Below are positions 5,113 through 24,056 of a stretch of DNA of 29,221 nucleotides, piece after piece. Both the position numbers and the translations under genes were made by a program. The notes under the pieces are model-generated. The model searched no databases and was not told the origin of the DNA. It saw only the letters and a list, made by a program, of their open reading frames with translations. Positions within the stretch are counted from its first letter, which is position 1. Every line of letters begins with the position of its first letter. Source of the stretch: a virus; IMG/VR virus record IMGVR_UViG_3300017782_000135, positions 1-29,221 of that record; one strand, given 5' to 3'.

Positions 5113-5142
5113 ATACATATTAAAAAAATGGAGAAACGCATT

Positions 5143-5811
5143 ATGCAACTAAGTGAAGAAACACTTGCCCTATTACAAAACTTTGCCTCGATTAATCCGA
5201 ACATTGTTTTGAAACCAGGTCAAGAAATTAAAACTATTTCCGAGGCCAAGAATATTCTTGCAACAGCTTCGGTTGTCGAGGACTTTCCATCAGACCTAGG
5301 TATTTATGACCTTAATGAGTTCTTAAGTGTACTCAGTCTGATTGATAATCCAACTCTAAATTTTACAGAGAAATCTGTGAAAGTAAGTGGTACTGGAACA
5401 GGGGTAAATTATTACCTTGCTGAACCTAGTATCTTAACCGCTCCTGAAAGGGACATCACAATGCCAAACGCCGAGGTTACTGTTGAACTAACCGAAGAAA
5501 AACTTCTGAAGGCTAAAAAGGCAGCGTCAGTGCTTGGTCACTTGGATCTTGCTTTCGTTGGAAACGACGAAGGGATTTCTATTAAAGTGTTCGATCCTAA
5601 AGATGCTAGTGCAAATACATTTGACCTAGCTCTCGGAGAAAATACGACTGGGCAAACTTTTAGTTTCATCATGAACATTTCAAATCTGAAAATCATTGAT
5701 GGCGACTATGAAGTACAAATTTCATCAAAACTCATTTCAAAGTGGGTGAACAAAACTAAACCGGTAAGTTACTTTATTGCTTTGGAAAAAAGTTCAACGT
5801 TTGGTGTATAA
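5143..5811 (+). CDS. 45: gp45-like DNA polymerase sliding clamp
   Basis: A 222-aa homologue of the T4 processivity clamp (T4 gp45 is 228 aa). The N-terminus MQLSEETLALLQNFASIN aligns with the start of T4 gp45 (MKLSKDTTALLKNFATIN), which fixes the start at ATG 5143 rather than ATG 5128; GGAG at 5130-5133 fits as its ribosome site. The trimeric ring tethers gp43 to DNA and in T4 also activates late transcription with gp33 and gp55. The loader subunits gp44 and gp62 lie downstream. A late promoter overlaps its stop codon. Confidence 0.95.
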   Translation: MQLSEETLALLQNFASINPNIVLKPGQEIKTISEAKNILATASVVEDFPSDLGIYDLNEFLSVLSLIDNPTLNFTEKSVKVSGTGTGVNYYLAEPSILTAPERDITMPNAEVTVELTEEKLLKAKKAASVLGHLDLAFVGNDEGISIKVFDPKDASANTFDLALGENTTGQTFSFIMNISNLKIIDGDYEVQISSKLISKWVNKTKPVSYFIALEKSSTFGV

Positions 5812-10134: not shown

Positions 10135-11223
10135 ATGAATAAACTTCGATATTATATTCTGATTACCAGAGGCATTGCTCAAGTTAAGCGCCATGCTAGA
10201 ATGTGGGATGGAACATATAGTCAGCAAATTACTAAAGATGATGTTTACTATGTAATTAATACTAGAGACGAAGATTTCCAGGCCGAAGCAATTGCATGGC
10301 TTGAATCTGAAGGTATTGAATATAATACATCAGAAAGTAACGGTGGACCTTCAAAAGGTAAAAACGCCGTACTAGATGCTTTCCTTGCATCAGATGATGA
10401 TTATTGTATTCAAGTTGATGGTGATGATATGATTACCCCACACGGTATTCATGTTCATAAGATGATTGCTAATCCAACAGTATATGGTCTTGATGATGAA
10501 ACTCCGCCGGATGTTGTAGTACTAGATTACCAATATGGCATTGTTCCAAATGAGGGATACGGTCCATTATCCGAGTCTGAAAATATCTATTCTGCAGCTC
10601 AATTTGCTGAAGATATTTACAATGCTGAATGTATTCAAGGTTTGGGATATAGATGCTTTAACAGACCATGGGAATGGTGGGATAGAGCAATGAGAGGGGA
10701 ATACTTTGAAAAGGGAAGTCCTTATTTAAGAGCACTATCTGAAGCCCATAAAAGATTAATTACTTATGAATTTAAGTATATTAATAAGTGGGAAACACAC
10801 TGTAGAGTTATTTGGTATTCAAAGAAGGCTGCGGGCCTTACAAGATTTAAAGAAGATATTTTAGTCGGAGAAGATGTAATGAATTACTTCGATCTAAAAC
10901 ATGAATTTGCACAAGGTAATCTGACAATGAAAACCTTGCATGAAGTATATCCAACTTATGTTTATGATCAACGAGTTGGTGGTATTGTACAAATTGCAAA
11001 TGATATGAATCACGGTAGAGGTTACCTAGATTGGATGGAGGATGCAGGAGACAAATACGAAGAGTATGAAACTGCTGGTAAACTCCACGAAGATTTAGAA
11101 ATACCTTACCTAGAATTTCCAACACTGTTTGCCGAGCACGACGGCGTTAATTACGTACCTGATACTTTAGGTTTAGTTAATTATCCTGCGGCCGCTGCAT
11201 CAGAAAAACACTGTGGATATTAA
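10135..11223 (+). CDS. GT-A-fold glycosyltransferase-like protein in the late block
   Basis: A 362-aa protein. Near residues 68-80 a KGKNAVLDAFL segment is followed by CIQVDGDDMI (Asp95, Asp97, Asp98), a DxD-type motif with the strand order of GT-A (family 2-like) nucleotide-sugar glycosyltransferases. The later ILVGEDVMNYFDL could provide the catalytic acidic residues. It follows the chaperone gene by four bases, so it is part of the late tail block and may glycosylate a virion protein (inference). No signal peptide. It does not look like a paralogue of the two TAGT-like genes at 15303 and 16575. Confidence 0.65.
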   Translation: MNKLRYYILITRGIAQVKRHARMWDGTYSQQITKDDVYYVINTRDEDFQAEAIAWLESEGIEYNTSESNGGPSKGKNAVLDAFLASDDDYCIQVDGDDMITPHGIHVHKMIANPTVYGLDDETPPDVVVLDYQYGIVPNEGYGPLSESENIYSAAQFAEDIYNAECIQGLGYRCFNRPWEWWDRAMRGEYFEKGSPYLRALSEAHKRLITYEFKYINKWETHCRVIWYSKKAAGLTRFKEDILVGEDVMNYFDLKHEFAQGNLTMKTLHEVYPTYVYDQRVGGIVQIANDMNHGRGYLDWMEDAGDKYEEYETAGKLHEDLEIPYLEFPTLFAEHDGVNYVPDTLGLVNYPAAAASEKHCGY

Positions 11224-12151: not shown

Positions 12152-14653
12152 ATGACAAAATTTTATACTAATGTATCTCGGTATGGTAACAACTTACTTT
12201 ACCGTGGCTATGAAGATGGCCAGAAAATCCAGAAACGAATCAAATATCAACCCACTCTTTTTGTAGCTACACCCAAAGGCACTTGGAAATCTATTGATGG
12301 TATCAAGTGTGCTCCAGTTATGATGGACTCTATGCGCGATGCTAAAGAATGGATTGCCACAAACAAAGACACGGCAGGACGCCAAATCTTTGGTAATGAC
12401 CGATATATTCCTGCCTTTATTAATGATGAATTTCCAGGCGACATTGAATTCAATCGTAGCCAAATTAATGTAACTTCAATTGATATTGAGGTTGCTTCAG
12501 ATGAAGGATTCCCTGAACCAGGCGCTGCAGATTATCCTATTATATCAATCTGTATGAAAAACAATATTGACAATACTTACTACGTATGGGGTCTTGATGA
12601 TTATGATGTAGAAAAATCATATATGACTACCAACCGAGTTGTATATCAGAAGTGTGATTCAGAATTACAACTAATGCATGCATTCATTGCTCATTGGTCA
12701 ACCCCATCACATACTCCTGATGTGGTTACAGGCTGGAATGTGCGTTTCTTTGATATTCCATATATTGTTAATCGTTGTGTAAAACTACTCGGCGAAGAAC
12801 CCACTAAACGCCTCAGTCCTTGGGGTATGGTAGAACGCCAGAATGTTCGTCAAATGAACCGTGTTCAAGAGGCATTCGAACTCAAAGGCATTAACACTGC
12901 TGACTATATGGAACTATTCCAAAAATATACTTACACGGCTCAAGAATCATATTCACTTAATCATATTTCTAGTGTAATCCTCGGCGAGAAGAAATTGTCT
13001 TATGAGGAATATGGTAATCTCCATACACTCTACCAACAAGATCACCAAAAGTTTATTGACTATAATATCAAAGACGTTGAGTTGGTAGAACGCCTAGAGG
13101 ACAAGATGGGCCTCATTACTCTTATGATGACTATGGCATATAAGGGTGGCGTTAATTATTCAGATACTTTCGGTGTGACAGGCATCTGGGAATCAATCAT
13201 CTATCGTCACTTATGGACTCAAAAAGTTGCCATCCCCTTTTATACAGATAAATTCAAGTCTGACTACCCAGGTGGTTATGTAAAAACTCCGCACGTAGGC
13301 TTATCCGATTACGTAGTGTCATTTGACCTTAACTCACTATATCCATCATTGATTATGCAATACAATATGTCTACAGAAACAATTGCTGACGGCGAAGTTG
13401 TGGGCATTAATGTTGATAAAATACTAGACGGATATACATTCGATAATCAAGGCAAGGCCACAGGCGGCAACGGCCAGTTGTTTAATGTAGACAAGAAAGG
13501 TGTATTTCCTACTCTTGTAGATAATATGTACAGTGAACGTGTGGTTATTAAAAAGGCCATGCTTGATGCAGAAAAAGAACTACAAACTGCTGACCCTGCT
13601 AATAAACAAAATATCTATGACATTGAACGCAGAATTCAAGTTGCAGAAAACCAACAGATGGCCATCAAGATTCTACTTAACAGTTTGTATGGTGCTCTTG
13701 GTAATAAATATTTCAGATTCTTTGACCAGAGAATTGCAGAGGCCATTACACTATCAGGTCAGCTGACAATTCGTTGGGCAGAAGTTGCACTTAATAAGTA
13801 CCTCAACAATATGATGGGTACTGACAAGGATTACATCATTGCTATTGATACAGATTCACTCTATGTTAATCTTGGCGACCTTGTTAAAAAATTCAATCCT
13901 AAGAATCCTATTGACTTCTTGGATACTGTTGCTTCAGAAAAACTAGAACCGGTACTTGCCAAATCATACAACGATCTTTACCAGCTTATGGGTGGCATTG
14001 AAAACAGAATGGTTATGAAACGTGAGGCCATTGCAGATAAAGGCATCTGGACTGCAAAGAAAAGATATATTCTAAATGTGCATGATAACGAGGGTGTCCG
14101 ATACAAGGAACCTAAACTCAAAATCATGGGTATTGAGGCTATCAAATCTTCTACTCCTGCACCATGTCGTGATGCACTCAAGGAATTATTCAAAGTTATT
14201 ATCCGCGGCAGTGAAAAAGAAACTCAACAGGCTGTAGAACAGTTTAAAAACTATTTCTTTACTCTTCCTGCACATGAAGTTGCATTTCCTCGTGGTGTGT
14301 CTAATGTCACGGATTATGCAGATAAAACTTTAACATATCGTAAAGGTACTCCAATCCATGTTCGTGCTGCTCTGCTGCACAATAGATTGCTGAAAGAACA
14401 TTCCTTAACCAAACGGTATGAACCTATTAAGAATGGCGAGAAAATTAAATTTGTATATCTCAAAATTCCTAACTCAATTAAAGAAAATGTTATTGGCTTT
14501 AACCAATATTTGCCTAAGGAGTTTGCTTTAGACAAATACATTGATTATGAACTCCAATTTCAGAAAACTTTTCTTGACCCCGTAGATCCTATATTCAAAG
14601 CAGTCGGTTGGAATTCAGAAGAAGTCCAATCATTGGAAGACTTTTTTGCATAA
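12152..14653 (+). CDS. 43: gp43-like family B DNA polymerase
   Basis: An 833-aa replicative polymerase (T4 gp43 is 898 aa). The 3'-5' exonuclease motifs are present: SIDIEVA (Asp111, Glu113), TGWNVRFFD and YNIKDVE. Polymerase motif A is SFDLNSLYPS, motif B is KILLNSLYGALGN, and motif C is DTDS with catalytic aspartates 566 and 568. The C-terminus ends in a short acidic/aromatic tail (VQSLEDFFA) of the kind that binds the gp45 clamp. No intein or split is seen. In T4 regA and 43 are adjacent; here a late block of about 3 kb separates them. Confidence 0.97.
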   Translation: MTKFYTNVSRYGNNLLYRGYEDGQKIQKRIKYQPTLFVATPKGTWKSIDGIKCAPVMMDSMRDAKEWIATNKDTAGRQIFGNDRYIPAFINDEFPGDIEFNRSQINVTSIDIEVASDEGFPEPGAADYPIISICMKNNIDNTYYVWGLDDYDVEKSYMTTNRVVYQKCDSELQLMHAFIAHWSTPSHTPDVVTGWNVRFFDIPYIVNRCVKLLGEEPTKRLSPWGMVERQNVRQMNRVQEAFELKGINTADYMELFQKYTYTAQESYSLNHISSVILGEKKLSYEEYGNLHTLYQQDHQKFIDYNIKDVELVERLEDKMGLITLMMTMAYKGGVNYSDTFGVTGIWESIIYRHLWTQKVAIPFYTDKFKSDYPGGYVKTPHVGLSDYVVSFDLNSLYPSLIMQYNMSTETIADGEVVGINVDKILDGYTFDNQGKATGGNGQLFNVDKKGVFPTLVDNMYSERVVIKKAMLDAEKELQTADPANKQNIYDIERRIQVAENQQMAIKILLNSLYGALGNKYFRFFDQRIAEAITLSGQLTIRWAEVALNKYLNNMMGTDKDYIIAIDTDSLYVNLGDLVKKFNPKNPIDFLDTVASEKLEPVLAKSYNDLYQLMGGIENRMVMKREAIADKGIWTAKKRYILNVHDNEGVRYKEPKLKIMGIEAIKSSTPAPCRDALKELFKVIIRGSEKETQQAVEQFKNYFFTLPAHEVAFPRGVSNVTDYADKTLTYRKGTPIHVRAALLHNRLLKEHSLTKRYEPIKNGEKIKFVYLKIPNSIKENVIGFNQYLPKEFALDKYIDYELQFQKTFLDPVDPIFKAVGWNSEEVQSLEDFFA

Positions 14654-14710: not shown

Positions 14711-15007
14711 ATGAACCTAAAACTAATCAGACTCATCTCAGGTGAAGAAATCATTTGCGAATTAACTGAACAAGAATCATCTTATACATTAACTAATGCA
14801 TTTGTATTAATCCCAGGAGGAGAAGGTAAAATTGCATTTATGCCATTCATGCCTTATACTACTGGTTCTGATACTGGAGTTACAGTTAAAGACACTCATG
14901 TAATGTTTGTTACAGAACCAGTTGAAGAGCTAGCTGCACAAATTAAAACACAGCTAGGTGTTGTCGAATCAGGCATTATTGTGCCAGAGCAAGGGATTAT
15001 CACTTAA
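14711..15007 (+). CDS. Sm-like fold small protein
   Basis: A 98-aa protein starting at ATG 14711 with GGAGA at 14701-14705 (the earlier in-frame ATG 14699 overlaps that site). LKLIRLISGEEIICELTEQE then YTLTNAFVLIP has the strand pattern of an Sm1-like barrel, followed by a predicted AFMPFMPY loop and HVMFVTEPVEEL. Marine T4-like phages carry related proteins (recollection). RNA binding is possible but unproven. Its TAA overlaps the next ATG (TAATG), indicating coupled translation. Confidence 0.65.
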   Translation: MNLKLIRLISGEEIICELTEQESSYTLTNAFVLIPGGEGKIAFMPFMPYTTGSDTGVTVKDTHVMFVTEPVEELAAQIKTQLGVVESGIIVPEQGIIT

Positions 15008-15303
15008 TGAACTTACAAGAAGTAATTGAAAAAACAGAACAGTGGCACATTGATCGTAACCTGATTGATGGTGCTACTGATAAAGATCAAGTATTAAAGC
15101 TCATTCAAGAGGTTGGAGAATTATCTGATAATGTTTGTAAGCAACAAGATATTTCTGATGATATTGGTGATTGTTTAGTGATTTTAATTAACATCGCTAA
15201 ACGTAATAACTTAACATTGGAGAGCTGTTTAAATGTTGCCTATAATGATATTAAGGATCGTAAAGGCAAAATGGTTGATGGAATCTTCATCAAGGAGGAA
15301 TAA
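15007..15303 (+). CDS. MazG-like nucleotide pyrophosphohydrolase
   Basis: A 98-aa all-alpha NTP pyrophosphatase. LIQEVGELSDNV supplies the first pair of metal-binding acidic residues and DDIGDCLVILINIA the second, in the MazG order; the C-terminus ends with the family-like NDIKDRKGKMVDG. MazG-like enzymes convert (d)NTPs to monophosphates, and phage versions may trim host nucleotides or (p)ppGpp-linked signals; the T4 dCTPase gp56 is of the same fold class. The substrate cannot be read from sequence. It is coupled to both neighbours by TAATG overlaps and sits immediately before a TAGT-like glycosyltransferase. Confidence 0.85.
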   Translation: MNLQEVIEKTEQWHIDRNLIDGATDKDQVLKLIQEVGELSDNVCKQQDISDDIGDCLVILINIAKRNNLTLESCLNVAYNDIKDRKGKMVDGIFIKEE

Positions 15304-16271
15304 TGCAACCCAAATATCCAATTTATATAATTTCTAAAGGCCGTGCAGATTCTCGTCTCACTGTTAAAACTCTTGAGGCAATGAACTGTCCTTATACAAT
15401 TGTTATTGAAGAATCAGAATACCCAGCTTATAGTGCTGTAATTGATCCTAAAAATATTCTTGTATTACCCGAGGGCTTTAGAGATAATCCAAAATGGGCT
15501 CACCGCTGTGAAGTGACTGGACATTTAGGTGGTTCTATTCCTGTTCGTAACTTTGTATGGGAACATTCTAAAAGCAATGGTGATAAACGTCACTGGATTT
15601 TAGATGATAACATCTTACACTTCTATCGTTTACATCAAAACAAAAAAGTAAAAATTACTGATGCTACAGGTTTTAGAGTATGTGAAGACTTTGCTGATAG
15701 ATATGAAGATGTTAAAATGTTCGGTATGAACTATGAATTCTTTGCACCAGCTACTACCAAACGACCTCCTTATTATCATAACACTAGAGTTTATAGTTGT
15801 ATTTGTTTATCTAATGACATATACCCCGAGCTCTCATGGCGTGGTAGGTATAATGAGGATACTGATTTATCACTTAAAGTGATGAAAGCAGGTTATCATA
15901 CATTCTTGTATAATGCTTTCTTATGTGGTAAAGTTGCAACTATGACTATGAAAGGTGGTAATACTGCTGAAGTCTATGGTGTCGATAAAATGGGTGGAAG
16001 TACTCAAGATGCAGGTGGAGAAAATTATGATAACCGACTTGTATTTGCTCAATCACTTAAGGATCAACATCCGGATGTAGTTCACATTACACAGAAATGG
16101 GGTAGGTATCACCATCATGTTGACTATAGAGTATTTCAGAAAGGCATTAAACCTACGCTGAAAGAAGGACTAAATATACCTAAAGGGCCAGATAACTATG
16201 GGTTAAAACTCGTAAGAATCAAACCCGAAGATAATGTAATAAATGAAATGGAGGAAGCAAATGAGGAATAA
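15303..16271 (+). CDS. TAGT-like glycosyltransferase, copy 1
   Basis: A 322-aa protein resembling the TET-associated glycosyltransferase (TAGT) family, GT-A enzymes first noted beside phage TET/JBP dioxygenases. The N-terminus reads YPIYIISKGRADSRLTVKTL; the DxD-like WILDDNILHF (Asp101, Asp102, Asn103) and the later NEDTDLSLKVMKAGY follow the family pattern, as does a conserved C-terminal ITQKWGR-H segment. It is paralogous to the gene at 16575-17420. TAGTs are proposed to glycosylate modified bases in phage DNA; here no TET gene is visible, so the acceptor is unknown. Start at 15303 is coupled to the MazG-like stop, with AAGGAGG upstream. Confidence 0.72.
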   Translation: MQPKYPIYIISKGRADSRLTVKTLEAMNCPYTIVIEESEYPAYSAVIDPKNILVLPEGFRDNPKWAHRCEVTGHLGGSIPVRNFVWEHSKSNGDKRHWILDDNILHFYRLHQNKKVKITDATGFRVCEDFADRYEDVKMFGMNYEFFAPATTKRPPYYHNTRVYSCICLSNDIYPELSWRGRYNEDTDLSLKVMKAGYHTFLYNAFLCGKVATMTMKGGNTAEVYGVDKMGGSTQDAGGENYDNRLVFAQSLKDQHPDVVHITQKWGRYHHHVDYRVFQKGIKPTLKEGLNIPKGPDNYGLKLVRIKPEDNVINEMEEANEE

Positions 16272-16578
16272 TAAAACTCTAAACTATCAACCCGAAAATC
16301 TGTTTGTAATGACAGGTCAAGAAGATGAAGCAACACCCTATGATTGGGATGGTATGCCTGAATTCGATCAACCAGAAGCTGAGGCTTGGAAGGTATTAAA
16401 GGTCAGATTTAGAAACCAAGAAGATCTTATGGAGTTTGCCAAAGTCATCGAGCAATTAAATATGACTGTAAAGACTAAAGCAATTTGGTATCCACCGCTG
16501 GATAAGAAAGCAAATAGTCTATTGCGTTATATGCCTGAAGATTCTATTGATGATAGTGTAGATGAGATTGTAGAATGA
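16261..16578 (+). CDS. hypothetical 105-aa protein between the TAGT-like genes
   Basis: Starts at ATG 16261 with GGAGG at 16250-16254, overlapping the upstream gene by 11 bases; it overlaps the next start by four (ATGA). The acidic N-terminal third (PENLFVMTGQEDEATPYDWD) is followed by a compact segment WKVLKVRFRNQEDLMEFAKV ending in KTKAIWYPP. That pattern recurs in unannotated phage proteins (recollection), but I know no function. Its position locked between two paralogous glycosyltransferases suggests a partner role, which is inference only. Confidence 0.7.
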   Translation: MRNNKTLNYQPENLFVMTGQEDEATPYDWDGMPEFDQPEAEAWKVLKVRFRNQEDLMEFAKVIEQLNMTVKTKAIWYPPLDKKANSLLRYMPEDSIDDSVDEIVE

Positions 16579-17420
16579 CCCATGAAGTTTTAGAGAAAAA
16601 TGCAAAAAAGTTACTGGCCGATATTGATTCGTATAATATGGTTCAATATCCAATTTACATTCCATCTAAAGCTAGACCTAAAAAGTCAACTGCACAAGCC
16701 CTAGAAGATGCTGGTTTAAAGTACTTTATAGTAGTTGAACCTCAGGATTACACCAGCTATAGAGAAGTTTTTACAAGAGAACAATTGATTAAACTTCCTA
16801 TGGATAACCAAGGGGTTGATTATGTTAGAAACTATTGCAAAATTCATAGTGCTCAAAACGATTGGGAATATCATTGGCAGATGGATGATAATATTAAAGA
16901 CTTTAGAATTAGAGTTAATAATAAAAATGTCAAATATAGTGCTAAAAATATTCTCTCTGCGTCAGAGACTTATGTAAGAGAATATGATAATATAGGTATT
17001 CTAGGATTATGTCATGTTGGTTTTGCCTTTGCTAGAGACAATGAGGTAGATGTAAATAAACAAGTTTATAGCTGTGTATTAGTAAACAATCAAGTACTTG
17101 CTAATTGGAGACCTGATGTTGTAGAAGATACTGACTATAGCTTACAAGTTTTAGAACAAAAATACTGCACGTTACTCTTAAATAGATTCTGTATAGGAAA
17201 GGAAACTACAAGTACCAATTCAGGTGGAAATGATAACTCTAATGAGTGGAGAATGAAACGCTCATTAGGATTACAGAAATATTGGCCAGGTGCTTTTAAA
17301 ATTACAGAACAATATGGCAGAGTAAAGATACAACCATCTCGTATATGGAAACGATATACTCATATGCCGATCGGCCAGAAGATAGATTTAAATGGAAATA
17401 ATTTATCAGATTTTTTTTAA
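16575..17420 (+). CDS. TAGT-like glycosyltransferase, copy 2
   Basis: A 281-aa paralogue of the protein at 15303. It shares YPIYIPSKARPKKSTAQALE at the N-terminus, the FIVVEPQDY strand, WQMDDNIKDF (Asp104, Asp105, Asn106), VYSCVLVNN, VEDTDYSLQVL and the late ITEQYGRVK segment. About 20 extra residues precede the fold. Two divergent copies in one operon suggest two sequential or alternative sugar additions. Its ATG overlaps the previous stop and no strong ribosome site is seen, so translation is probably coupled. Function inferred from the family. Confidence 0.72.
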   Translation: MTHEVLEKNAKKLLADIDSYNMVQYPIYIPSKARPKKSTAQALEDAGLKYFIVVEPQDYTSYREVFTREQLIKLPMDNQGVDYVRNYCKIHSAQNDWEYHWQMDDNIKDFRIRVNNKNVKYSAKNILSASETYVREYDNIGILGLCHVGFAFARDNEVDVNKQVYSCVLVNNQVLANWRPDVVEDTDYSLQVLEQKYCTLLLNRFCIGKETTSTNSGGNDNSNEWRMKRSLGLQKYWPGAFKITEQYGRVKIQPSRIWKRYTHMPIGQKIDLNGNNLSDFF

Positions 17421-17428
17421 CTTAGGGG

Positions 17429-17457
17429 TTTACAATCCCGACAATATGTGATATAAT
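17429..17457 (+). promoter_or_regulatory. sigma70-like promoter with almost no leader
   Basis: TTTACA (17429-17434), a 17-bp spacer, and TATAAT (17452-17457) with extended TGTGA. The start codon of the next gene is at 17467, only nine bases after the -10, so the expected transcript has a leader of a few bases at most. Confidence 0.88.
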
Positions 17458-17466
17458 ACTTATATT

Positions 17467-18378
17467 ATGATTAAAGGTACTCTTTTCGAGTCATTATTTG
17501 ACACTAAGACCGACAAACAAATTAGTTTGCCGGATTTCGAGCATTTCGAACAAGTGCTTTACAATCTGGCTAAGAAACCAAGGAAAGGCAAGAAGGATGC
17601 AGAACTAATGTCGCCCGCTGTTTACCTACCAGGTACAACACGAAAGAACGACAATGTTACTGCTTGGGGAGGCTGGTGTGCTGTAGATGTAGACGATTAT
17701 CAAGGTGATATTAGTGATTATAAAGTCAGCGACTATTATTATGTGTGCTACTCTACAGCATCATCAACTGATGAACAACCCAAATTCCGACTTGTATTTC
17801 CTCTTACCAAATCAATTAGTAAAGATAAAATTAAACACTTCTGGTTTGCTATAAATAAAGAGTTGGGTGAAGTTGGAGATATTCAGACAAAAGATTTATC
17901 TCGTATGTATTATATCCCAGGCAAATATAAAGATGCTAATAATTTTATATTTACAAATGAAGGACCTAGAGTTGACCCTATTGAATTAATGAATAAATGG
18001 GAATATGTAGAACCAAGTGGTAACACGATGTTTGATAAACTTCCAAAGAAAATGCAAGAAGCTATGATGTCCCACTTAAAAAATAATCTAAATAATACTA
18101 GTGTTAAGTGGACTGGTTACAGAGATTGCCCATTCTTCCCTAGAAAGCTAGAAAAAGAATATAAAACAATATCTGGTACTGGTTGGTACCACAAGATGTA
18201 TCAGATCATGGTTGCTTTGGCTGGTAATGCTATACAGGCTAAATATCCAATTAATGCAAAAGAAATTGCATACCTGTGTCGTGAACTAGACCTAGAAACT
18301 GGCAACTGGTATGAAAAAAGAAATTTAGATACAGAGGCAGAGAGAGCCCTGGAATATGTTTACAAGAATACTTTTTAA
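17467..18378 (+). CDS. AEP/PrimPol-like primase candidate
   Basis: A 303-aa protein. GGWCAVDVDDYQGD (Asp74, Asp76) followed by YYVCYSTASSTDEQPKFRLV, with Arg108, matches the hhDhD and later basic motif of archaeo-eukaryotic primase-like domains, including the VirE/PrimPol types of mobile elements. The C-terminal 130 residues are helical with WYHKMYQIMVALAGN. This is not the DnaG-type T4 gp61; no gp61 is seen in this window. Priming activity is inferred. It has its own promoter but no ribosome site, so the mRNA may be leaderless. The next gene starts ten bases later. Confidence 0.5.
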   Translation: MIKGTLFESLFDTKTDKQISLPDFEHFEQVLYNLAKKPRKGKKDAELMSPAVYLPGTTRKNDNVTAWGGWCAVDVDDYQGDISDYKVSDYYYVCYSTASSTDEQPKFRLVFPLTKSISKDKIKHFWFAINKELGEVGDIQTKDLSRMYYIPGKYKDANNFIFTNEGPRVDPIELMNKWEYVEPSGNTMFDKLPKKMQEAMMSHLKNNLNNTSVKWTGYRDCPFFPRKLEKEYKTISGTGWYHKMYQIMVALAGNAIQAKYPINAKEIAYLCRELDLETGNWYEKRNLDTEAERALEYVYKNTF

Positions 18379-18387
18379 GGAATTATT

Positions 18388-19572
18388 ATGAAAAAAATTA
18401 CTGTAGTAGGTTCAGGTTATGTTGGTTTAGCCAACGCTACCATGCTGGCCAAACACAATGAAGTTACAATTTTAGATATTGACGGAGATAGAGTAGAAAA
18501 AATTAATAACAGAATTTCACCTCTTATTGATGCTAATATTATTGATTCATTTGAAAAGGATAAACTCAATCTAGTTGCAACTACTGATAAGAGAAAGGCA
18601 TATGCTAATCCTGACTGGGTTATTATTGCTACTCCTACAGATTACTGTACAGAAACTAATTATTTTAATACTAAAACTGTCGAGGATTGCATTGCTGAGG
18701 CAATGTGGAACCACGTGGATTGGGACAAATCAGAAACTAATATCGTGATTAAATCAACTATTCCAATCGGCTTTGTAGATTCACTTAATAATGACAGAGT
18801 GTTTTTCTCTCCAGAATTTTTAAGAGAAGGTAGTGCACTTAGGGATTGCTTACGACCTGAAAGAATTGTAGTAGGTAATCAAGACCAGGCAGGAGTTGAT
18901 TGGGTAGAATTAATGTATGATTCCATCATTCAAAACTTTCCAATGCCACCAGTTACCTATTGTGGCAATAGAGAAGCAGAATCAGTTAAATTATTTGCTA
19001 ACGGCTACCTTGCTATGCGTGTGGCATTTTTTAATGAACTAGATACCTTTGCTGAATTTCATAAACTAGATACAAAACAAATTATTGAAGGTGTTGTTGG
19101 TGATTCAAGGATTGGTAAACACTATTGTAATCCTAGTTTTGGTTATGGTGGCTATTGTTTCCCTAAAGATACTAAACAGCTACTAGCTAATTATAAAGAA
19201 AACAGAATACCTAATAGACTTATTAGTTCTGTGGTGTATTCAAATGATATAAGAATGGATCATATTGCAAATCAAATACTACATAATAATCCTAAAATTG
19301 TAGGTATTCATAGATTGATTATGAAAAGTGGATCAGATAACTTTAGAAGTTCAGCAATTCAAGGTATTATCGAGCGTCTAACTCCACATTGTAAAGTAAT
19401 TATTCACGAGCCGGAATTTGGTTTTGACGGCGAATTTATGAACTGTGTGGTTGAAAGTGATCTAAATAAGTTTAAGAAGTTAAGTGATGTGATTGTAACT
19501 AATAGAATGGAGAAATGCTTAAATGATGTTAAAGATAAAGTGTATACAAGAGATGTATTTGGAGATAATTAA
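18388..19572 (+). CDS. ugd: UDP-glucose 6-dehydrogenase family protein
   Basis: A 394-aa protein of the UDP-glucose/GDP-mannose dehydrogenase family, near the length of compact bacterial UGDHs. The N-terminal Rossmann motif is VVGSGYVGLANA, IIATPTD follows, the central FSPEFLREG is family-typical, and the catalytic cysteine lies in GYGGYCFPKDT (Cys257). The reaction oxidises UDP-glucose to UDP-glucuronate with two NAD+, though other NDP-sugars cannot be excluded. The next gene is an NDP-sugar epimerase coupled by a one-base overlap (TAATG), suggesting a two-step sugar pathway. AAGGA precedes ATG 18388. Confidence 0.92.
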   Translation: MKKITVVGSGYVGLANATMLAKHNEVTILDIDGDRVEKINNRISPLIDANIIDSFEKDKLNLVATTDKRKAYANPDWVIIATPTDYCTETNYFNTKTVEDCIAEAMWNHVDWDKSETNIVIKSTIPIGFVDSLNNDRVFFSPEFLREGSALRDCLRPERIVVGNQDQAGVDWVELMYDSIIQNFPMPPVTYCGNREAESVKLFANGYLAMRVAFFNELDTFAEFHKLDTKQIIEGVVGDSRIGKHYCNPSFGYGGYCFPKDTKQLLANYKENRIPNRLISSVVYSNDIRMDHIANQILHNNPKIVGIHRLIMKSGSDNFRSSAIQGIIERLTPHCKVIIHEPEFGFDGEFMNCVVESDLNKFKKLSDVIVTNRMEKCLNDVKDKVYTRDVFGDN

Positions 19573-20426
19573 TGAGTAATATTTTAGTAACAGGAGGAGA
19601 GGGCTTAGTTGGTTCTCATTTAGTTCATACTTTGGCTGATCTTGGCCATAAAGTAACTTCGGTTGATAATCACTTTAATAGTAGTGATAATCCAAGACAT
19701 CCTGCAGTTGATTATTGGATTCAAGATTGTAAATTCATTAGACAATCTAATATGGCAGAGAAAGAATTTGATTATATTTTCCATTTAGGAGAATATGCTA
19801 GAGTAGAGCAATCATTTGAAGATCTCGATATAGTTATGGATTATAATTTAACAACATTTCCACTAATGCTCAAATTTGCAAAAGAAAAGAATGCTAAATT
19901 TATTTACTCTGGCTCATCTACTAAATTTGCAGTAGGTGAAGTTGGTAGTGCACAGAGTCCTTATGCTTTTACTAAAGCTCAAAATACCGAACTACTTAAA
20001 AACTTTGCTGAATGGTATGGCCTTGAGTATAGTATTGTGTATTTTTATAATGTTTATGGTAAGGGTGAGAAAGGTACTGGTAAATATGCTACAGTGGTTC
20101 AGAAATTCATAGATAAAGCTATGTTTTCAGACGATCCACTTCCAGTCACTTCGCCTGGAACTCAATTAAGAAATTTCACTCACGTTGATGATATTGTCTC
20201 TGGCTTAATGCTTGCAGGCTTTAGAGGTAACGGAGATGGTTATGGAATTGGTAATGATTATAAATATTCCATTCTGGACCTAGTTGATATGCTAGGTTGT
20301 GAACCAGAAATGAAACCTGAAAAGCCTGGTAACAGAATGGATGGTGAATTAAAAACAGACAAATTAAAAGCTCTCGGCTGGTCTGCTGAGAAAGATTTAA
20401 GAGATTATATTAGGAGTCAGATATGA
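19572..20426 (+). CDS. NAD-dependent NDP-sugar epimerase/dehydratase (SDR)
   Basis: A 284-aa extended SDR. TGGEGLVGSHL is the NAD-binding glycine motif, SGSST supplies the serine region, and YAFTK (Tyr131, Lys135) is the YxxxK catalytic pair. YFYNVYGKGE and RNFTHVDDIVSGL are typical of NDP-sugar epimerases and decarboxylases. It follows the UDP-glucose dehydrogenase directly, so it may act on UDP-glucuronate or a product of it (epimerisation, or decarboxylation to a UDP-pentose). Substrate is not determinable from motifs alone. Its stop overlaps the next start (ATGA). Confidence 0.88.
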   Translation: MSNILVTGGEGLVGSHLVHTLADLGHKVTSVDNHFNSSDNPRHPAVDYWIQDCKFIRQSNMAEKEFDYIFHLGEYARVEQSFEDLDIVMDYNLTTFPLMLKFAKEKNAKFIYSGSSTKFAVGEVGSAQSPYAFTKAQNTELLKNFAEWYGLEYSIVYFYNVYGKGEKGTGKYATVVQKFIDKAMFSDDPLPVTSPGTQLRNFTHVDDIVSGLMLAGFRGNGDGYGIGNDYKYSILDLVDMLGCEPEMKPEKPGNRMDGELKTDKLKALGWSAEKDLRDYIRSQI

Positions 20427-21689: not shown

Positions 21690-22256
21690 ATGAATGAATT
21701 GATTAAAAGTAAAAGCGAATGGTACCCTATTTCTTGGATACCAAGTACCAACAGTTCCACTTGGAAGGAATTTGTAAAGCAACATGGCGTCGGTGGTAAA
21801 ATCCCAGGATGCTATCAGACTGCTTTAACAAAAGATATTGAAGATATTGGGGACAATATTGTCCACGAAGCTATTGGATATAATGGTAAAGCAAAGGATG
21901 TTATAGGTAGAACTGGTGGTATTCGTGCACCTAAGGGCAGACATGGAGTCAGACGCTATATTGACAGTAATGATTTATGTAGAGAAAAAGATGTTGTTAT
22001 TAGGTATTTAATTACCGAGAATGAGGACACATCTACCGAATTAGAAAACTCATTGCATAAAGAATTTGAAAATCAATTTGGTTTTAGGTTTGCATGGAAA
22101 ACTGCTTCAGGTGGAATTGATGGTAAATATGATAACATCTTAGCCGAAGCAGAATATTTAACCTCAAAACAAGGGCTCGATATTATCAAAGACCTGAAAG
22201 AACTCTTTCTTGCCAAGTCGCTTGAAGAATATCAGGAGAAGCTAGATAATGTCTAA
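21690..22256 (+). CDS. GIY-YIG-like protein (tentative)
   Basis: A 188-aa protein starting at ATG 21690; the upstream in-frame TTG at 21678 overlaps the TTGGAG ribosome site. IPGCYQTAL could correspond to the GIY strand, DVIGRTGGIR to the YIG strand with the following arginine, and ELENSLHKEF to the conserved glutamate helix, suggesting a GIY-YIG-type nuclease fold. The match is loose and no DNA-binding module is obvious. It overlaps the next gene by eight bases. Treat as a hypothetical protein with a possible nuclease fold. Confidence 0.4.
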   Translation: MNELIKSKSEWYPISWIPSTNSSTWKEFVKQHGVGGKIPGCYQTALTKDIEDIGDNIVHEAIGYNGKAKDVIGRTGGIRAPKGRHGVRRYIDSNDLCREKDVVIRYLITENEDTSTELENSLHKEFENQFGFRFAWKTASGGIDGKYDNILAEAEYLTSKQGLDIIKDLKELFLAKSLEEYQEKLDNV

Positions 22257-22677
22257 TAGAGTGGGTATTACCTGTAGCACATTTGATTTACTTCATTCTG
22301 GTCATGTTGCTATGTTAAGAGAAGCAAAGACTCAGTGTGATTATCTTATTTGTGCTTTACAAAATGATCCATCAGTTGATAGACCTGAAAAGAACCAACC
22401 CGTACAAAACATTGTTGAAAGACAGGCACAACTAGCTGCTATTAGCTATGTTGATGAAATTTTAGTATATAATACAGAGAAGGAACTTCTTGATATTCTT
22501 GGAATGTATCAAATAGATGTTAAGATTATGGGACAAGAATATCGTGATCTAGAATTTACAGGCAAAGATTTATGCCGACAAAGAGACATTGAGTTCTATT
22601 TCAATAAAAGAGACCATAGGTTTTCTACAAGTGATCTAAGAAAACGAGTAGTTATTTCTGAAAATGAAAGAAAATAA
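22249..22677 (+). CDS. cytidylyltransferase-like nucleotidyltransferase
   Basis: A 142-aa protein of the HxGH nucleotidyltransferase superfamily. TFDLLHSGHVAML carries HSGH (His16, His19), followed by ALQNDPSVDR, an E-RQAQLAAISYVDEILVY segment, and the C-terminal RFSTSDLRKR equivalent of the RTxGISTT-type motif. The size and motifs match glycerol-3-phosphate cytidylyltransferase (TagD-like) or the adenylyltransferase domain of RfaE. It may prepare a CDP- or ADP-linked precursor; the substrate is unknown. Overlaps the GIY-YIG-like gene. Confidence 0.85.
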   Translation: MSNRVGITCSTFDLLHSGHVAMLREAKTQCDYLICALQNDPSVDRPEKNQPVQNIVERQAQLAAISYVDEILVYNTEKELLDILGMYQIDVKIMGQEYRDLEFTGKDLCRQRDIEFYFNKRDHRFSTSDLRKRVVISENERK

Positions 22678-22731: not shown

Positions 22732-23001
22732 ATGCCAAGTATAGATTTAAGGCCAAGGCCAAATAGAAATAAAAAGGACAAGAGACCGCCTAGGGAAATG
22801 CCTTTTGATATAGCTCTAAGAAAATTTAGGAAAGCTGTAGAAAGAGCTGGAACTCTACAGAAAGTAAGGGAGAAGGAATTTTATGAAAAGCCTACTGCCA
22901 AAAGAAAACGTAAAAAAGCAGAGGCCATTTCCAGATGGAGAAAGCAAGAAAGACAAATGCAAATGAATGGTGGTGGTAAATCACCGAGGAGAAGAAAATA
23001 A
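22732..23001 (+). CDS. rpsU: phage ribosomal protein bS21
   Basis: An 89-aa very basic protein. Residues 24-66 carry the bS21 signature: [20 protein letters not shown], then [20 protein letters not shown], matching bacterial bS21 (PFDVALRRFKR, CEKAG, EVRRREFYEKPT-ERKR). It is longer than the 71-aa E. coli protein because of a Pro/Arg/Lys N-terminal extension and a C-terminal [10 protein letters not shown] tail. bS21 sits on the 30S platform near the anti-Shine-Dalgarno region and exchanges readily between ribosomes. Viral bS21 genes are known, especially in marine phages. It leads an operon with uvsX (TAATG overlap) under its own strong promoter. Confidence 0.95.
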
Positions 23002-24056
23002 TGTCAGTAATGGATAAATTAAAGAAGAATAGTAAAATTAAAGGAACAGATGTTCTAGAAGATTCTATTTACTTCACAGAAAAAGATATGTGTAAGACAG
23101 ATGTTCCTATGATTAATATTGCCTTATCAGGTGATGTTAATGGTGGTTTAACTGCTGGACTTACAGTTTTGGCTGGGCCTAGTAAACACTTTAAAACAAG
23201 TTTTGCTTTACTTATGGCTGGTGCCTATATGAAAGAACATAAAGACGCTGTTATGCTTTTCTATGATTCTGAGTTTGGTTCACCCCAATCATATTTTGAA
23301 TCATTTGGCATTGATACATCTAGAGTATTACACACTCCTATTACTGATGTAGAACAACTAAAATTTGATCTAGTTGGTCAGTTGGATAACATCGAACGCA
23401 AAGATAAAGTTATTGTAGTCATTGACTCTATTGGTAACCTTGCATCTAAGAAAGAACTAGAAGATGCTTTAAATGAGAAATCAGTTGCCGATATGAGTAG
23501 AGCTAAAGCATTAAAGGGACTATTCCGAATGGTCACTCCTTATTTAACTATGAAGAATATCCCTTTACTTGCTGTTAACCATACGTACCAAGAAATGGGT
23601 CTATTTCCTAAAGCAATCGTATCAGGTGGCACAGGCATTTATTATTCTGCCGATAATATCTGGATTCTAGGCCGTAGACAGAATAAGAAAGGCACAGAAG
23701 TTAAAGGATATGACTTTGTTATTAATGTAGAAAAATCTAGGTTTGTAAAAGAAAAATCTAAGATTCCAGTAACAGTCAGCTGGGAAGGTGGTATTGAGAA
23801 ATACTCAGGCCTTCTTGAAGTTGCTCTTGCAGGTGGTTATGTTACCAAACCTTCAATGGGTTGGTATTCAAAAGTTGACCAAACTACAGGTGAGCAGATG
23901 GAAGGTAAGGTAAGAGAAAAGGAAACACTTACTGCTGAATTTTGGGAACCAATCTTTGCAGATACTAACTTTGCAGAATTCCTAAAAGCTCACTATTCTA
24001 TCGGCCATAAACCAATGTTAGAAATTGATTTAGAAAGCACTTTACAAGAGGGATAA
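23001..24056 (+). CDS. uvsX: UvsX-like recombinase
   Basis: A 351-aa RecA-family recombinase (T4 UvsX is 391 aa). Walker A is GPSKHFKT (residues 59-66), nearly identical to the T4 form GPSKHFKS; Walker B is KVIVVIDSIGNLASKKELED; further conserved segments are DMSRAKALKGLFR and PLLAVNHTY. It forms the presynaptic filament for strand exchange and recombination-dependent replication. ATG 23001 overlaps the bS21 stop, so the two are translationally coupled. T4 uvsX is linked to gene 41, as here. Confidence 0.95.
   Translation: MSVMDKLKKNSKIKGTDVLEDSIYFTEKDMCKTDVPMINIALSGDVNGGLTAGLTVLAGPSKHFKTSFALLMAGAYMKEHKDAVMLFYDSEFGSPQSYFESFGIDTSRVLHTPITDVEQLKFDLVGQLDNIERKDKVIVVIDSIGNLASKKELEDALNEKSVADMSRAKALKGLFRMVTPYLTMKNIPLLAVNHTYQEMGLFPKAIVSGGTGIYYSADNIWILGRRQNKKGTEVKGYDFVINVEKSRFVKEKSKIPVTVSWEGGIEKYSGLLEVALAGGYVTKPSMGWYSKVDQTTGEQMEGKVREKETLTAEFWEPIFADTNFAEFLKAHYSIGHKPMLEIDLESTLQEG

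Follow-up and report, generated by a model that had tools for sequence, protein, structure and literature searches.

Do the sugar-related genes between the polymerase and recombinase genes of a marine virus act on the DNA of the virus itself? We asked this of IMG/VR record IMGVR_UViG_3300017782_000135. The stretch analyzed (the window) is the entire 29-kb record (29,221 nucleotides), and statements about absent genes therefore rest on its relatives. An initial annotation had proposed a DNA hypermodification pathway made up of a MazG-like enzyme, two glycosyltransferases (GTs) similar to the TAGT family, the UDP-glucose dehydrogenase Ugd, and a nucleoside diphosphate (NDP)-sugar epimerase. We found all six open reading frames (ORFs) that it named, at or near the positions it had assigned (15007-20426), and profile matches bore out the MazG-like enzyme, Ugd, and the epimerase, a short-chain dehydrogenase/reductase (SDR).

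We think it probable that these genes of a T4-like marine phage form a cassette for DNA hypermodification, with a uronate supply, a two-part glycosyltransferase (TAGT1 and a small protein here called U111), and a second glycosyltransferase (TAGT2) with a clamp-type tail. Hypermodification is the best reading because of the TAGT family membership, the synteny with phage T6, the fusion of U111 to a ParB-like sequence, and the tail of TAGT2; the last three back the role proposed initially. This context supports DNA glycosylation well, and DNA is the probable substrate.

TAGT1 and TAGT2 match the TAGT family

By profile, both GTs (starting at 15303 and 16575) belong to the TAGT family, as had been proposed. 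They scored 143.4 bits (TAGT1) and 103.6 bits (TAGT2) against PF20691, which has a curated cut-off of 27.5, and they are 37% identical to each other. PF20691 was the sole Pfam match above cut-off for both, and neither matched GT8, a family of the lipopolysaccharide (LPS) type. That is, a profile search that could have placed them among protein- or LPS-glycosylating enzymes placed both in TAGT. Residues D101/D102 and E185/D186 were invariant in an alignment of 32 TAGTs, as were the GGN residues. TAGT1 had 354 relatives among the candidate IMG/VR stretches, and 80 of these were fetched. TAGT2 as a scan query gave no relatives in viral contigs; relatives were reached via TAGT1, the primase-like gene, and uvsX.

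The TAGT1-type enzyme is modeled as a GT-A fold. AlphaFold2 predicted the TAGT core of a fused U111-TAGT relative confidently (pLDDT mostly >90) and its U111 part with uncertainty. The six best Foldseek matches to this relative included the GT-A enzymes LARGE1, COLGALT1, SunS, and heparosan synthase. Sequence searches found no solved relative of TAGT1. TAGTs, including that of T6, have been predicted to be GT-A enzymes (PMC13216743). The T6 enzyme, ggt, also matched PF20691 (E 1e-8), and its gene lies in the order gp43-imm-gp42-ggt-uvsX, in the same interval as the cassette in the window.

U111 as a second piece of TAGT1

The initial annotation had noted an unknown gene of 105 amino acids (aa) enclosed by the two GTs. 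The gene is there, but rather than an unrelated unknown it appears to be part of the first GT. U111 had no Pfam or NCBIfam match. By BLAST it aligned to the N-terminal part of the one-piece TAGT of Pectobacterium phage POP12 (E 5e-11) and to the N-termini of one-piece TAGTs from Aeromonas phage Aeh1 (7e-8), Tenacibaculum phage PTm1 (3e-5), Vibrio phage V1076 (9e-5), and Aeromonas phage 65 (5e-4). A U111 profile found it fused to TAGT in two metagenomic loci as well (L083 and L077), and TAGT1 and U111 are a near-constant pair among relatives. Because of the fusions in phages and loci, we take U111 to be the second piece of a predicted two-part TAGT1 enzyme. The U111 gene overlaps that of TAGT1 by 29 nt and that of TAGT2 by 4 nt, so the three look translationally coupled. 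U111 proteins have an N-terminal NLFVMxGQE motif and a WxGMPEF...WYP core, and six columns, including Met-Pro and Tyr-Pro, were invariant over 20 diverse copies. Structure prediction for U111 alone was poor (pLDDT 63).

U111 also appears, from its fusions, to have a history beside DNA-modifying enzymes. In two loci, the U111 profile lies behind an N-terminal extension that matches the N-terminal part of the DNA methyltransferase family PHROG_498 (E 2.6e-20) and ParB-like families. These ParB-like-U111 fusions (L074:2874-3527 and L084:9373-10011) precede a TAGT. Given that their ParB-like part is similar to the one in phage DNA methyltransferases, the TAGT seems to take the place of a methylase there.

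The fused enzymes of Aeh1 and 65 are about 41% identical to TAGT1 and carry the U111 domain. They differ in being one-piece enzymes with no Ugd or SDR seen adjoining. They have been predicted to modify DNA at an unknown base (Iyer 2013, as cited in PMC8056088).

The N-termini QVALF (U111 of L083) and QFALF (L077) resemble bacterial clamp-binding peptides, and this is suggestive only. The N-terminal NLFVL of T4-like U111s was considered as proof of clamp binding and set aside; it is common by descent and no proof by itself.

A polymerase-type tail on TAGT2

TAGT2 appears to carry a putative clamp-binding tail like that of the DNA polymerase. In the window, the polymerase (gp43) ends SLEDFFA and TAGT2 ends NNLSDFF (C-terminal tail peptide IDLNGNNLSDFF), and no other predicted ORF ends in this way. 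The TAGT2 C-terminus fits the L-x-x-F-F pattern as in gp43; the frequency of the tail in shuffled ends was 0.03%. In the T4 system, the tails of gp43 and gp55, a known clamp binder, bind the clamp; the T6 versions end SLDFLFG (gp43) and SLDFLYEAND (gp55). In three long relatives, the tail was on 1 to 3 of 118-196 proteins, gp43 always included.

Over all loci, the tail was present on gp43 (94/95), C5-methylase-like proteins (28/28), HMUDK-like proteins (8/8), and GT-B proteins that take the place of TAGT2 after U111 (7/8). It was on none of 48 Ugd, 98 uvsX, and eight Glf proteins, and on one of 66 SDRs, a loose match. None of the 61 TAGTs partnered with U111 had it, as against ten of the 30 others, which include the fused proteins of cultured phages and a tail-less TAGT2 subtype. 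A 407-aa protein of a sister phage, a T4-type DNA alpha-glucosyltransferase (PF11440 E 1.4e-54), ends SDLSEFFG, and the T4 alpha-glucosyltransferase has been reported to bind the clamp gp45 (PMC13216743). The gp45 gene of the window is at 5128-5811. The putative tail is the strongest indication that TAGT2 acts on DNA during replication. Recruitment of TAGT1, if any, would have to be via U111.

Sugar supply

Ugd is, as judged by homology, a UDP-glucose 6-dehydrogenase, predicted to convert UDP-glucose to UDP-glucuronate (UDP-GlcA). It matched solved enzymes of this kind over its full length (3phl, E 2.7e-121, residues 2-393; 3pid was similar, ~3e-121). The SDR probably converts UDP-GlcA to UDP-galacturonate (UDP-GalA). 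In E. coli ArnA, E434 and R619 are the decarboxylase residues. In an alignment to ArnA, the SDRs of the window, Vibrio phage Kuja, phage C48C1, and the other islands compared lacked both and kept Tyr and Lys. An SDR from a sister clade matched 6zl6 (E 2e-43) and MoeE5 (E 3e-36), which we take to be UDP-glucuronate 4-epimerases, and its best match was 5u4q, labelled dTDP-glucose 4,6-dehydratase. For the window SDR, the best solved matches were generic 4-epimerases only. The initial annotation had suggested a UDP-pentose or uronic sugar. Because the SDR lacks the decarboxylase residues, the pentose is weakened, and a uronic acid (GlcA or GalA) fits better and is the likeliest donor.

The cassette in related phages

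We surveyed 53 distinct gp43-uvsX intervals. So as not to select for TAGT, the set was seeded also with the primase-like gene and uvsX. TAGT and U111 were in 22 of the 53 intervals, and 21 of these 22 had both Ugd and SDR. Ugd was in 21/22 intervals with TAGT and U111 and in 8/31 others (Fisher p 2e-7, uncorrected for relatedness). In the clade of the window, the order is gp43, a small gene, (MazG), TAGT1, U111, a variable slot, the primase-like gene, Ugd, SDR, further genes, an HldE-like gene, and uvsX. The arrangement recurs in dozens of contigs and is thus not due to chance. The slot after U111 holds TAGT2, a GT-B (Glyco_transf_4, a weak match), a 315-aa GT-like protein with LDMDS, a protein similar to methyltransferases that use S-adenosylmethionine, or nothing.

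The cassette occurs also as a unit. In two contigs (L028 and L029, 62 and 165 kb), there is a compact block of TAGT1-U111-Ugd-HldE-SDR, and the flanks fetched had no gp43 or uvsX match. Two U111-TAGT proteins are also encoded by Kuja, from a different family of phages, which has an adjoining Ugd-SDR pair elsewhere in its genome.

The nearest named phage by polymerase is C48C1 (51%). It has a D12 methylase at the TAGT1-U111 site, keeps SDR-Ugd, and has elsewhere an operon of TET, a GT, and the UDP-galactopyranose mutase Glf. The Ugd-SDR pair is thus associated with more than one set of DNA-modification genes. The C48C1 operon (49583-53030; L322:3584-7031) encodes a TET/JBP oxygenase with the C-terminal sequence SLEEFFV, a protein of 344 aa that is GT-like by eye, and the mutase-like protein, all annotated "hypothetical". 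This suggests a furanose decoration of DNA.

Intervals of sister phages have other apparent hypermodification sets. Some combine a gene similar to thymidylate synthase (TS) with a C5-methylase-like gene, an HMUDK-like gene, Glf, or an alpha-glucosyltransferase. For example, L207:10202-15379 and similar intervals contain TS-like (PF00303), GT376, Glf, SDR, and C5-methylase-like genes, and a protein with an HMUDK_hel domain and the tail NTLEEFFV (L217:16013-17140) adjoins C5-methylase-like and TS-like genes. Another set has a TS-like gene with asparagine synthase (AsnB) and an N4/N6-methylase-like protein. It is present as consecutive genes at L253:4568-7911 and about 20 similar loci, and looks like another base hypermodification.

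The source is probably a T4-like marine phage related to the SAR11 pelagimyophages, which would make SAR11 the host. In a long relative of 120 kb, CsgG and CsgF occur alongside T4-type head and tail genes, and SAR11 pelagimyophages have been reported to carry a curli operon (PMC7029224).

The acceptor

The initial annotation had left the base acceptor open. This was right but understated the matter, in that the hydroxymethylase and TET genes carried by others in the group are absent from relatives with TAGT1 and U111. A TS-like profile had no match in any of 133 TAGT-U111 loci. It also found nothing in three long relatives, namely G001 (119 kb read), G002 (165 kb), and G003 (177 kb), and the Pfam TS model PF00303 found nothing in 24 related contigs of up to 334 kb. 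In the interval survey, a TS-like gene was in 0/22 intervals with TAGT and U111 versus 27/31 others (Fisher p 3e-11, too small given shared descent). The two TAGTs in the survey that lack U111 (L249 and L317) accompany a TS-like gene. TET/JBP (PF12851) was not found in TAGT-U111 phages, and was detected in the positive control, Nonlabens phage P12024L. A search for 2-oxoglutarate-Fe(II) oxygenases as acceptor makers (PF13640 and PF13759) matched one relative (G002), above cut-off for PF13640 only. The C5-methyltransferase family PF00145 was in no island-type relative, and was present in the distant G008 and V1124.

Among cultured phages with one-piece U111-TAGTs, a TS family gene is present in Aeh1, 65, PTm1, henriette, POP12, and Kuja (where it may be a dUMP-type hydroxymethylase), and none was found in V1076 and V1124. 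Because of this mixed picture, the exclusion of a hydroxymethylase applies to the T4-like marine group rather than to all phages with a U111-TAGT. Either an unrecognized gene makes the acceptor, or U111-TAGT accepts unmodified DNA. It is conceivable, and we offer it tentatively, that TAGT1-U111, clamp-held at the fork, puts a uronic sugar directly on an unmodified base (or makes the acceptor via U111), with no hydroxymethylase or oxygenase. If so, this would be a third route to DNA glycosylation besides hydroxymethylase-first and TET-first.

Comparison with known systems

The T2/T6 enzyme (beta-glucosyl-hydroxymethylcytosine-alpha-glucosyltransferase, ggt) shares PF20691 and the gp43-uvsX placement with the cassette, and the profile similarity is weak. 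The T6 enzyme is without U111, acts after the gp42 hydroxymethylase and an alpha-glucosyltransferase, and uses UDP-glucose. In contrast, the cassette has U111, two TAGTs, and Ugd-SDR, with no hydroxymethylase in relatives. TET-TAGT systems, such as that of P12024L, have the TAGT family in common with it. There, a TET/JBP oxygenase adjoins TAGT, unlike in the relatives with U111, where none was found.

The initial annotation had likened the cassette to RB69, a comparison that did not hold up for the transferases. In the gp43-uvsX region, RB69 and Mosigvirus do carry sugar-nucleotide genes of their own, and they have two GTs (PMC6024577, PMC13390438); the putative arabinose genes of RB69 occupy that interval (PMC6024577). 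However, the arabinosyltransferase proposed for RB69 has been reported to be of the GT-B type (PMC6024577), and the prediction for TAGT is GT-A (PMC13216743). The RB69 type also has a TS-family 5-hydroxy-dCMP synthase for the acceptor, and an SIS isomerase and an NTP-transferase as sugar genes. The cassette GTs are TAGTs and no TS-like gene was found in relatives, in searches that did not use RB69 ORF003c as a query.

Bacillus phage SP-15 (dihydroxypentyluracil, DHPU) has Ugd inside a DNA hypermodification cluster that gives glucuronate on DNA. It differs in having a thymine-derived acceptor made via hydroxymethyl-dU synthase, and phosphoglucuronate, and the portion of the account drawn on here names no TAGT (PMC5977210).

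Proposed pathway and alternative explanations

In the pathway that we favor, Ugd would oxidize host UDP-glucose to UDP-glucuronate, and the SDR would epimerize this, probably to UDP-galacturonate. TAGT1 and U111, as a two-part GT-A glycosyltransferase, would place the first sugar, presumably a uronic acid, on phage DNA. TAGT2, kept at the replication fork by its polymerase-type clamp tail, would then add to or vary this first decoration. MazG would shape the dNTP pool (probably by trimming it). Replacement of TAGT2 by other enzymes, as in sister phages, would be expected if defenses that read modifications attack the outer decoration.

Several points weigh against this pathway. The Foldseek matches are weak (TM score about 0.35), and the clamp tail is missing from TAGT1 and from the second TAGT2 subtype. 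Searches of relatives for TS and TET found no acceptor-making gene in cassettes of this type. The intervals are related by descent, making the co-occurrence p-values too small. Of the 31 islands that lack TAGT-U111, eight have Ugd-SDR, so the use of the sugar genes extends to other enzymes. The window SDR is too divergent for its substrate to be read from sequence alone. Finally, SAR11 hosts rarely carry restriction-modification, a point used in print to argue for an LPS role (PMC7029224).

That role is the one published for this phage group: its rfaE, UDP-glucose 6-dehydrogenase, and GTs have been assigned to LPS (PMC7029224). Ugd, the SDR, and the GTs would build or alter the LPS O-chain of the host and so exclude other phages. 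We consider this unlikely. Restriction systems are noted to be scarce in SAR11, and the LPS role accounts for the sugar genes, but not for the clamp-type tail on TAGT2 and on the GTs of the sister slot, the ParB fusion of U111, or the placement between polymerase and UvsX, like gp42-ggt in T6. The GTs are TAGT, not GT8, and we noticed no gene for a membrane protein or lipid carrier in the island. Glycosylation of a phage or host protein (e.g., capsid or RNA polymerase) seems very improbable. The gene is among head genes in some relatives (V1076), and GT-A folds also serve protein glycosylation, as in the COLGALT1 and SunS matches; the replication-gene context, the clamp tail, and the ParB fusion argue otherwise.

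It is also possible that DNA is modified with a different sugar. That TAGT uses host UDP-glucose for a plain hexose, with Ugd-SDR making some other precursor, is doubtful. The T6 TAGT does use UDP-glucose, and the stretches read of phages with a one-piece U111-TAGT, such as V1076 and V1124, contain no Ugd-SDR pair; on the other side are the association of Ugd with TAGT-U111 islands and its retention, with the SDR, in Kuja. A pentose (xylose or arabinose), as in RB69, is a decidedly poor fit. Bacteria usually make UDP-xylose and UDP-arabinose by way of UDP-GlcA. Cytosine in RB69 and Mosigvirus NP is mono- and di-arabinosylated, which has been attributed to a pair of GTs (PMC13390438). However, E434 and R619 are missing in every island SDR aligned, and the GTs are of the TAGT/GT-A type rather than the GT-B type reported for RB69 ORF003c.

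The proposed DNA-hypermodification cassette, if correct, calls into question the LPS role published for phages that are abundant in the ocean. Of 753 genomes with these GT genes, 288 have TAGT but no known first-step DNA GT, and their role was stated to be open (PMC13216743). The comparisons separate two classes of TAGT: one linked to U111, never with a hydroxymethylase in the T4-like marine phages surveyed, and one without U111 that can be. They also give U111 as a partner domain, predict an acidic sugar, and offer the polymerase-type clamp tail as a sequence mark for picking DNA-acting enzymes in phage genomes.

Gene layout and neighboring genes

Table 1. Features of the island in the window.
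Feature	Position	Strand	Size	Matches and remarks
DNA polymerase gp43	12152..14653	+		Left landmark of the island
MazG-like nucleotide pyrophosphohydrolase	15007..15303	+	98 aa	PF03819 E 8.8e-5; PHROG_1992/715 MazG E 2e-38/7e-35
TAGT1	15303..16271	+	322 aa	PF20691 E 1.2e-41; ILDDN and NEDTDLS motifs
U111	16243..16578	+	111 aa from first ATG (16243) or 105 aa from second	Homology to N-terminal domain of one-piece TAGTs
TAGT2	16575..17420	+	281 aa	PF20691 E 1.7e-29; without a U111 domain
Primase-like protein (Prim)	17467..18378	+	303 aa	PHROG_9765 DNA primase E 7e-47
Ugd, UDP-glucose 6-dehydrogenase	18388..19572	+	394 aa	PF03721/PF00984; GYGGYCFPKDT with catalytic Cys
SDR of NDP-sugar 4-epimerase type	19572..20426	+	284 aa	PF01370 E 3.3e-34; Ser-Tyr-Lys present
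HldE-type nucleotidyltransferase (CTP_transf_like)	22249..22677	+		PF01467 E 7.5e-14; TIGR02199 E 3.5e-19 but under cut-off
UvsX/RecA-like protein	23001..24056	+		Right landmark of the island

Between 14699 and 17420 (a 102-aa gene, MazG, TAGT1, U111, and TAGT2) and between 18388 and 20965 (Ugd, SDR, and a wall hydrolase), each reading frame overlaps or directly adjoins the next, which points to operons. The spacing of about 1 kb between the GTs and Ugd, as described initially, is real and holds the primase-like gene. This gene is conserved both with and without TAGT; it is probably a replication gene, and a neighbor rather than a member of the pathway. The MazG-like gene is kept in many, but not all, related islands, and a PRA-PH/MazG-like protein replaces it in other clades.

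The HldE-type protein, similar to HldE domain II and glycerol-3-phosphate cytidylyltransferase, is present in most TAGT islands, and a second sugar-activating step is possible. Small proteins that by eye are GIY-YIG-like or nuclease-like (c20, c22, and c82) lie variably between Prim and Ugd/SDR in L030, L031, L036, and L055, and could possibly be homing endonucleases that aid slot swaps. A 362-aa protein at 10135-11223 had no Pfam or PHROG match above chance. It has a VDGDD motif, looks GT-A-like to the eye, is 70% conserved in L005, and may be a further glycosyltransferase.

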